DNA of 64,000 nt from Olegusella massiliensis (GTDB taxonomy: Bacteria > Actinomycetota > Coriobacteriia > Coriobacteriales > Atopobiaceae). How positions within the stretch are numbered: the first letter of the stretch is position 1; every line of letters starts with the position of its first letter. Positions 5,247 to 47,156 of the stretch are shown here, piece by piece. Under the pieces are notes generated by a model. It ran no database searches and had not been told where the DNA came from. It saw only the letters and a list, made by a program, of their open reading frames with translations. The translations under genes and the position numbers were made by a program. Where the stretch lies: the NCBI RefSeq assembly GCF_900078545.1, contig NZ_FLLS01000002.1:682001-746000 (forward strand), given 5' to 3'.

Positions 5247-5300
5247 ATGATTATGAGGATGCCCCATCATGTCACAAAGATGGTTCGTTTGTCGAACTAG
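5247..5300 (+). CDS. Possible 17-residue small protein behind a strong Shine-Dalgarno
   Basis: An AAGGAGGGG Shine-Dalgarno right after the msrAB stop is followed, 5 nt later, by an ATG opening a 17-codon frame (MIMRMPHHVTKMVRLSN, then TAG). Four Met in 17 residues would fit a target or sensor of Met oxidation, but this is speculation. It may equally be the remnant of a lost gene. No family is recognisable. Confidence 0.25.
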   Translation: MIMRMPHHVTKMVRLSN

Positions 5301-5538
5301 GGGAAAATCTGACCTGCGGTTTTTATGCTTGCCGACTTCGAAACTCGAACCATTTGATCCCGCTTTCAAAATAGAATCTGCGTTCCCTCTTTGCGTCTTC
5401 ACTATGTTTTATCTGAATGCTCATCTTCGCTGCGAAAGCTCAGTCCATAAATACAATTTATTAAGCTAAGCGTAAGAACTGCGAAAACTAATTCCATAAA
5501 ATACAATTTAGTAAGCTAAGCGTCAGAAGGGAGTTGCC
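5301..5538. repeat. Intergenic stretch ending in a 49/50 bp tandem duplication
   Basis: Positions 5301-5430 show nothing I recognise. Then 5431-5479 and 5480-5529 are two diverged copies of one unit starting TGCGAAA and containing ATACAATTTA, AAGCTAAGCG and AGAA at matching positions. The second copy ends in the AGAAGGGAG Shine-Dalgarno of the next gene. The duplication therefore also duplicated any control sequence upstream of the YbjQ-family gene. Confidence 0.75.
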
Positions 5539-15005: not shown

Positions 15006-15059
15006 AAAGCCACGCATCCGGGCGTATACTTCTTCCATCGAGCTTCCACAAGCTGGGGT

Positions 15060-15119
15060 TCTGCTTTCCTATCTGTAGGCTCTGCTTTCCTATCTGTAGG
15101 CTCTGCTTTCCTATCTGTC
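15060..15119. repeat. Three tandem 21 bp repeats upstream of rpsL
   Basis: The unit TCTGCTTTCCTATCTGTAGG plus one C occurs at 15060-15080 and 15081-15101, and again for 18 bp at 15102-15119, with no mismatch in the core. The period of 21 bp equals two helical turns, so all copies face the same side of the DNA upstream of the str promoter. A frame across it on the minus strand encodes the repeat peptide QIGKQSL but is not a believable gene. Confidence 0.9.
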
Positions 15120-15193
15120 CTTCAAGCGGTGTGGTTTTGCTTCTTAAAAAAGGCCCAGTTTTGTTCATGGCAACTTTTTTATTCTCACGAATA

Positions 15194-15491
15194 TCAAACG
15201 CCACGCTTTGTTTCACTTTTTTAGCCAAACGCCACGTTCTATTTCACACCCTTTCACCCCAAGTGCCTAACGCCACGTTCTATTTCACTTTTTTAGCCAA
15301 AAGCCACGTTTCATTTCACCCGAAAAAAATCTACCTGGGCAAACGTCACACCCTTTGAAACGAAGTGTGGCTTTTGACTTTTTTTCTGAAACGAAACGTG
15401 GCTTTTGGCAGGCAGGACCACTCTGCTTGAAATGATTCGTGGCGTTTGACAGGCAGAGCCGCTCCATTTGAAACAGAACGTAGCTTTTGGC
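15194..15491. repeat. Head-to-head array of eight 24 bp motifs (locus A)
   Basis: Four plus-strand copies start at 15194 (23 bp), 15224, 15265 and 15296. Four inverted copies start at 15355, 15386, 15427 and 15468. The unit is GCCAAA(A/C) then GCCACGTT, two variable bases and a TTTCA(C/A/G) end. Start-to-start spacings are 30, 41, 31 and then 31, 41, 41 bp, close to three or four helical turns. A 35 bp centre containing AATCTACCTGGGCAAACGTC separates the two halves. The array lies between the rpoC terminator and the str operon upstream region. No coding capacity is believable here. Confidence 0.85.
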
Positions 15492-15511
15492 AAGCAGAGC
15501 GAATTTGGCAT

Positions 15512-15552
15512 GAAGAAAGCCTCCCCTTTCTCGTATCCAAGAAAAGGGAGGC
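15512..15552 (-). terminator. Terminator after rpoC
   Basis: On the minus strand GCCTCCCTTTTCTT pairs with AGAAAGGGGAGGC with one mismatch, followed by TTTCTT. It lies about 55 nt after the rpoC stop. Confidence 0.85.
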
Positions 15553-23693: not shown

Positions 23694-23889
23694 GTGTCGA
23701 CAGTTTGCCTATCCTGCCGCGCTTATACGGTGTCGGCAGTTTACCTGCCCTGCCACGCTCATTTTGCCACGCTCATAAACAGATGGAGCATCTCTCGGTT
23801 TTCAAAATGTTTTTACCTGGGCTTTTGTTGGCCGCAAGGTCGAGGAACGAACCATCTATATGGTATGTGATCGAAGAATGAACCATCTA
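23694..23889. repeat. Two pairs of direct repeats upstream of rpoB
   Basis: A 32 bp sequence starting GTGTCG occurs at 23694-23725 and 23730-23761 (26 of 32 identical, period 36). A third partial copy, TTTTGCCACGCTCATAAAC, follows at 23762-23780. A 19 bp sequence ending GAACCATCTA occurs at 23840-23858 and 23871-23889 (17 of 19 identical, period 31). TTTTTACCTGGGC at 23811-23823 echoes the centre of the 24 bp motif arrays. All lie between the rplL terminator and the rpoB promoter. Confidence 0.7.
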
Positions 23890-23930
23890 GCGCTCGGGCA
23901 GCCTGCTCGCGACCCATAAATGACTCGTTA

Positions 23931-46518: not shown

Positions 46519-46888
46519 GCATTACCTCCATATGCGAAGACGAGCTGCGTCGATTCTGTTCATACCCTTACTAGTATAAGACGGTCTGAGGCTCCAAACA
46601 GCGGTCTCTTCCTCTTCCCCAGTCTTCTCATGATGGCATGTAGCCGCCACTGTCTTTACTTTCGTCTTGCTGAACCCTATGCGCCCTCAACGTTCTCGTA
46701 TCAGAAGATACCACCATGCTGCAAGAAAAAGATCATCATACTCAGAGACAAACTCAGGCGTTCTGGTTTTAATGCAATGGATGAGTTGACTGCCAGCTCT
46801 ATCCCAAGCTGGCGTTGCATTAAATAGAAGCAGAGCGTACGAGAAATATTCATATCTGCACGAGCAGTCTGCTATGTTGATGCGAAGT
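46519..46888. other. Non-coding stretch upstream of disA
   Basis: I see no gene with a convincing start and no tRNA or known leader between the disA ATG and the repeat array. Several short frames exist but lack Shine-Dalgarno sites. The disA promoter must lie here; no consensus pair stands out. Confidence 0.4.
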
Positions 46889-47083
46889 GCCAAAAGCTAC
46901 GTTGCGTTTCGTGCCGCTTCAAGGCAGGTGCCAAAAGCCACGTTCTACTTCACTTTTTTAGCCAAAAGCCACGTTTCATTTCACGCGAAAAAATCTACCT
47001 GGGCAAACGTCAAGCCCTTTGAAACAGAACGTGGCGTTTGACAAACGGGAGCACGACTTTTGAAATGATCTGTGGCGTTTGGC
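46889..47083. repeat. Head-to-head array of five 24 bp motifs (locus B)
   Basis: Three plus-strand copies of the same 24 bp motif as at 15194-15491 start at 46889, 46930 and 46961. Two inverted copies start at 47019 and 47060. Spacings are 41, 31 and 41 bp. The 34 bp centre (46985-47018) again carries AATCTACCTGGGCAAACGTC. The inner part, about 46951-47023, is nearly identical to 15286-15359. It lies between the clpC terminator and disA. Confidence 0.85.
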
Positions 47084-47156
47084 AAGCAGCTCTTGTCGAA
47101 GTAGGACGAGAGCATGTTACGTTCCGCGCGCCGATTTATCTAGATGCTCGGCACAG

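Follow-up and report, generated by a model that had tools for sequence, protein, structure and literature searches.

The gap between rpoC and rpsL in the window (the whole stretch of 64,000 nucleotides of Olegusella massiliensis (O. massiliensis) DNA that was analysed) holds an array of eight copies of one motif, four direct and four inverted, found by the repeat finder run over the window and seen in the sequence itself. This array (locus A) lies downstream of the rpoC terminator and upstream of a promoter-like site of rpsL (15005-14977). Its units, located with a weight matrix trained on the O. massiliensis genome, follow the 25-bp motif TTGYCAAAMGCCACRTTYYRTTTCA, here called family 1, and its parts are as follows:

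15191-15215, + strand: family-1 unit, left arm 4, outermost (weight matrix)
15222-15246, + strand: family-1 unit, left arm 3, 31 bp on (weight matrix)
15263-15287, + strand: family-1 unit, left arm 2, 41 bp on (weight matrix)
15294-15318, + strand: family-1 unit, left arm 1, 31 bp on, adjoining the core (weight matrix)
15319-15355, + strand: asymmetric core CCCGAAAAAAATCTACCTGGGCAAACGTCACACCCTT, related to the core common to all families
15356-15380, - strand: family-1 unit, right arm 1, head-to-head, 62 bp from left arm 1 (weight matrix)
15387-15411, - strand: family-1 unit, right arm 2, 31 bp on (weight matrix)
15428-15452, - strand: family-1 unit, right arm 3, 41 bp on (weight matrix)
15469-15493, - strand: family-1 unit, right arm 4, 41 bp on (weight matrix)
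15519-15552, - strand: intrinsic terminator of rpoC (context)

The preliminary description of this array as four direct and four inverted copies set head-to-head holds for the layout, while its measures need revision: the unit is 25 rather than 24 bp long, the centre 37 rather than 35 bp, and the array spans 15191-15493 rather than 15194-15491. The steps, which had been given as 30, 31 or 41 bp, are 31, 41 and 31 bp, then 62 bp head-to-head, then 31, 41 and 41 bp, with no 30-bp step anywhere in locus A. Between the array and rpsL, positions 15057-15119 of the window carry three tandem copies of a 21-bp unit, GGCTCTGCTTTCCTATCTGTA, which occurs in this genome only there and, as diverged copies, at the same place in the closest relative among those compared, Atopobium sp. 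oral taxon 810 (F0209; hereafter the relative); considered as a fourth motif family, it was rejected as a private three-copy repeat. A second family-1 array lies further along the window:

46887-47085, + strand: second family-1 array (locus B), between the disA and clpC genes (weight matrix)
46887, 46928 and 46959, + strand, with 47020-47044 and 47061-47085, - strand: units of locus B, at steps of 41, 31, 61 and 41 bp

In the genome as a whole, family 1 amounts to eight arrays and a few single units, and a whole-genome search with the motif pattern gave 39+36 matches, compared with 7+1 for a control pattern. A retrained weight matrix found 307 sites in the stretches examined from this genome and the relative, and its reversed-matrix control found 0. 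It had been proposed earlier to check whether the spacings cluster at 31 and 41 bp, random spacing elsewhere being taken as fatal to the idea of phasing, and cluster they do: 196 of 217 same-strand neighbours stand exactly 31 or 41 bp apart (112 at 31, 84 at 41). Head-to-head pairs are separated by 62 bp in 25 of 30 cases, and tail-to-tail pairs are absent among the 307 family-1 units from the stretches of both genomes. Several of the spacing exceptions measure about 78-82 bp, or about two 41-bp steps, and probably contain one decayed unit between the neighbours. In canonical orientation the two arms are unequal, one stepping 31 and then mostly 31 bp, the other 31 and then 41 and 41 bp. In the outer units the motif is informative and the linker is not (1.47 versus 0.26 bits per position for left arm 4), which indicates that motif and distance have been kept, not linker sequence. 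In the 41-bp steps of the right arm, several of the 16-bp linkers run on into a palindrome (CAAGCAGAGCCGCTCTGCTTG, for example), which is perhaps a candidate site for a second factor.

The steps of 31, 41 and 62 bp, the conserved motif with its variable linkers, the absence of tail-to-tail pairs and the lack of pairing between the arms together lend good support, at the level of sequence, to the earlier suggestion of a helically phased platform for a putative binding protein. Inverted arms, which are present in every family of these elements, could also suggest an RNA or a cruciform, the arms forming one long hairpin that would undergo processing or act as a transcription terminator, and the single arms found outside the genus do match well over 20-35 bp. 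However, the innermost left and right units match each other at 18.6 of 25 positions within arrays, a value reached in 133 of 2000 shuffles, and at 18.0 between arrays, and the second pair of units shows no excess at all. Side-specific letters moreover break the pairing (position 4 of the family-1 motif is C in 25/25 left units and T in 23/25 right units), the arm steps are unequal (31 versus 41), and Rfam gave no covariance-model match over the array in the window or over the core at 17 loci. The hairpin or RNA reading was rejected on these grounds and is considered very improbable; the side-specific conserved letters instead argue for an asymmetric protein complex rather than pairing arms.

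The earlier proposal that such a protein might act at the rpoC/rpsL boundary in particular was not supported by the comparison of loci. Sister arrays adjoin clpC, rplM, glmM, uvrC/whiA, groEL, guaA and other genes without a common function, so that locus A, being one of several arrays between unrelated housekeeping genes, appears to be located at rpoC/rpsL incidentally, and three other species of the genus have an empty gap between rpoC and rpsL. By crude gene calling, the arrays lie mostly downstream of genes. This placement, spread around the chromosome, would agree with a platform serving the host, on which a nucleoid-associated, segregation or insulator protein would bridge DNA between operons and the phasing would have been selected for host function. 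The phasing itself, the conservation of the motif above the linker and the presence of five of the eight arrays at orthologous places in the relative, where adjacent genes are about 90% identical, are consistent with such a role, as is the common arm order of all eight arrays of this genome relative to GC skew, the four in negative skew being all f and the four in positive skew all r (Fisher p 0.03). However, this polarity is weaker in the relative (11/0 versus 7/4, p 0.09) and absent among the family-3 matches listed, which are all on the + strand on both sides of dnaA; a replication-polar element, suggestive in this genome, was rejected.

The narrow distribution of family 1 also speaks against a host function. 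Among the genomes searched, the relative, which belongs to the same genus, is the sole other one in which the motif is abundant (181 motif matches), and its array numbers are lower bounds because runs of N or contig ends fall at or near array centres (L192, L193, L212, L213 and the starts of L216-L223). Three other species of the genus lack the motif, and among 140 genomes of the family the phased pair forms real arrays in no species but these two, apart from one copy in Olsenella massiliensis. The sequence of that copy matches, and next to it, as next to an array of this genome, stand about 3.5 kb that are 94% identical between the two and include a large gene of surface-protein type (L093 in Olsenella massiliensis, L040 here), a shared stretch that is likely to reflect horizontal transfer. 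The motif has no match in the plasmid and phage collections or the viral contigs, and a phage or plasmid origin was rejected on that basis; the core gave two matches in viral contigs, within what chance could give. Furthermore, two single units of this genome are full arrays in the relative, and at other loci only remnants or nothing are found here where the relative has arrays, which indicates an ancestral set that is eroding in this genome. With family 1 missing from the rest of the family bar the one copy that was probably shared horizontally, and with many arrays kept by the relative lost or eroded here, a host-serving platform is considered unlikely.

At the disA-clpC locus the situation is reversed, and array fragments accompany an insertion in the relative: about 5.7 kb (L206, 1877-7615) stand in the place that here holds locus B alone, with debris of all three families around them and with genes resembling those for a Fur-family regulator, Dps, argG and argH. 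The centres of orthologous arrays differ by 20-32%, while a neighbour from the same species is found at 6-15%, on either side, in three of four arrays, and variants of the innermost unit are species-typical, being common to the arrays of one species. To judge from these comparisons, the array centres are evolving in concert, by gene conversion, recombination or re-copying, and ordinary homologous recombination between copies could be sufficient to produce this pattern. Elements of families 2 and 3 (described below) stand beside or inside remnants of family-1 arms (L190, L191, L206). At L191 (9230-9660), a family-2 element, with a possible 4-bp GCAT duplication around it, appears to be inserted in the linker of a family-1 arm and is followed by a family-3 element. 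No clear target-site duplication was seen in six pairs of filled and remnant sites, and some empty sites keep remnants of units, so that several of them are best regarded as deletions. Most family-1 arrays of this genome occupy ancestral positions, which weighs against recent movement of family 1. A separate observation concerns the DNA that directly follows guaA (L044 4915-13959; C2:1504914-1513958), an island carrying a type I restriction-modification system. The direct repeats at its boundaries include the 3' end of guaA, a terminator and an array that is complete at one boundary and a single unit at the other, and the island looks like an integration at that 3' end.

The intergenic, 3'-biased placement, the nesting of families and the decay in this genome could also be expected of decayed miniature transposons, or of repeat debris left by a transposase no longer linked to it, in which case the phasing would be a relic without a present role; Tn7-type ends do carry arrays of transposase sites. 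A miniature transposon, however, has fixed ends and a free interior, whereas here the centre is conserved and the ends and unit number vary, and assignment to the MITEs was rejected because outer units and boundaries vary where fixed outer terminal inverted repeats would be expected. A terminal repeat with target duplication was not found either, and the fact that centres change in concert within each species suggests that exchange is still going on, all of which makes transposon debris quite unlikely. A transposase or integrase beside the elements was likewise sought and rejected, as the motif does not occur within about 1.5 kb of the rve-type and tyrosine recombinase genes of the genus, and a Tn7/Mu-type transposon end was dismissed with it, the rve-domain genes lacking the motif over the same distance.

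Near a decayed array of the relative stood further arrays, similar in their centre but built from a different motif, and scans gave two further families with the same architecture as family 1 and the asymmetric core AAAATCTGACCTGCGnTTTT in common. Family 2, with the motif CGAAAAGGGTTCCTAATTCATCATC, has steps of 30-31 bp (5/6) and a head-to-head distance of about 57 bp; family 3, with the motif AGATGGTTCAxxTTTCGAA, has steps of 31 bp in 20/24 cases and of 59 bp head-to-head in 17/20, and lies between convergent genes in 13/22 cases by crude gene calling. Family 3 occurs elsewhere in this genome and twice in the window:

5274-5359: family-3 element, units 5274-5299 (+ strand) and 5334-5359 (- strand), head-to-head step 60 bp, with the core GGGGAAAATCTGACCTGCGGTTTTT between them
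23777-23892: second family-3 element, - strand units 23836-23861 and 23867-23892, 31 bp apart
About 23777-23802, + strand, and about 23804-23828: weak unit and core AAAATGTTTTTACCTGGGCTTTTG of the second family-3 element, read by eye

Both elements, which carry the AGATGGTTC..TTTCG motif and had gone unmentioned in the preliminary description, share the same kind of core. The centres of the three families have AAAA(A)TCT(G)ACCTGCGC in common, after which the sequence becomes T-rich in families 2 and 3, and the general layout of the core is an A-tract, then GACCTGCG or a close variant, usually followed by T4. With one mismatch allowed, the family-3 core pattern was found across 398 genomes of the class 17 times here, 10 times in the relative and 41 times in 20 other Coriobacteriales genomes spanning several families, against a single match for a control pattern in the 398 genomes, although the search was seeded with the core itself and the apparent conservation comes partly from this selection. 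The inverted repeats that flank the core differ between genera (e.g., GGAACCAAACCGCCC, TTTTGGCAGAAATCTTCAGATAT and GGCACAAAAACCGAGTTC), and at 19/26 loci outside the genus the inverted flanks exceed the 99th percentile of random positions (p about 3e-12). Three arm units about 30-31 bp apart are present at L226; arms outside the two Atopobium species mostly have one or two units, however, and strict phasing is therefore limited to these two. The set of cores is not pure, as two of the matches outside the genus (L235 and L241) look like ordinary terminator hairpins, and a neighbour gene common to the other genera was looked for and rejected, the flanking ORFs being unrelated or without a Pfam match.

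These elements, in which a core is flanked by inverted arms of a lineage-specific motif of about 25 bp, multi-unit and stepped by 30-31 or 41 bp in the two Atopobium species, probably form a class of dispersed, mobile or self-homogenising elements, whose phased arms would be the sites of a putative protein acting at the core. We see about an even chance that locus A is one copy of such a dispersed, non-coding, intergenic class of the Coriobacteriales. The nesting, the concerted evolution and the decay of arrays lead us, from sequence comparison, to prefer the reading of a mobile or selfish element to that of a fixed site for chromosome organisation. The mechanism that we propose would begin with a sequence-specific protein, one paralogue for each motif family, which would bind the units on one face of the DNA, oligomerise along both arms, join them over the core and act there, much in the way that a recombinase or transposase reaches its core through arm-type sites. 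Its action would drive the copying or homogenisation of the elements, which would be mobile repeats, self-propagating or non-autonomous, that are tolerated in positions downstream of genes and that would decay by loss of units under lower activity of the system, for which this genome would be an example; roughly half of our confidence goes to this account of binding, oligomerisation, action at the core and resulting spread or homogenisation. A wider version, possible and offered tentatively, is that of an order-wide class with a constant core and fast-changing arms, in which each family would have its own recombinase or homing protein co-evolving with the arm motif and would copy itself from one intergenic site to another by an as yet undescribed mechanism.

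Where dozens of loci keep strictly to spacings of three or four helical turns, they point with unusual directness to the cooperative assembly of protein on DNA, and the combination of an unchanging core with arms that vary from genus to genus suggests that a protein has co-evolved with its sites. Through such elements, a new protein for DNA binding or recombination would be reachable at little cost in the Coriobacteriales of gut and mouth, the consensus motifs making binding directly testable, and the elements would be a case of dispersed bacterial repeats evolving in concert. The view expressed at the outset, that no described element has this form, is shared by our search of the open literature, which found no description of the phased head-to-head architecture.

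Arrays of asymmetric 20-25 bp sites, inverted and unequal in their left and right arrangement, are typical of Tn7/Mu-type ends, and the elements described here resemble these in all such respects, but they have no fixed outer terminus, cargo or transposase, and their conservation peaks at the inner junction. They differ from CRISPR, as had been proposed, in their degenerate units inverted about a centre, their linkers of 6 or 16 bp and their housekeeping neighbours. The distinction from REP was also borne out, the family-1 unit being asymmetric rather than a short palindromic hairpin and the arms not covarying. REP/REPIN sequences with their RAYT do share lineage-specific inverted repeat arms and many intergenic copies, whereas the units of families 1 to 3 are non-palindromic and spaced at 31 or 41 bp, their arms are unpaired, and the core persists while the arms change. 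The pneumococcal BOX (boxA-boxB(n)-boxC) combines fixed terminal modules, terminal inverted repeats and target duplications with a variable middle; it resembles our elements as a dispersed intergenic composite repeat with a variable unit number and a bias to gene 3' ends, whose families cluster and insert into one another (PMC3049150). Assignment to BOX-type modular repeats was nevertheless rejected, since the layout is the opposite, with a fixed middle and variable outer arms, and the units, inverted about the core, are set at helically phased steps. Although the defining features that were tested set our elements apart from them, dispersed composite repeats such as BOX (PMC3049150) and the REPINs are the nearest known kinds. 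The likely mode of action that we propose is that of phage-type attachment sites, in which an asymmetric core likewise lies between inverted arm sites, and from which our elements differ in having dozens of dispersed copies, no linked integrase and arms of up to nine phased units.
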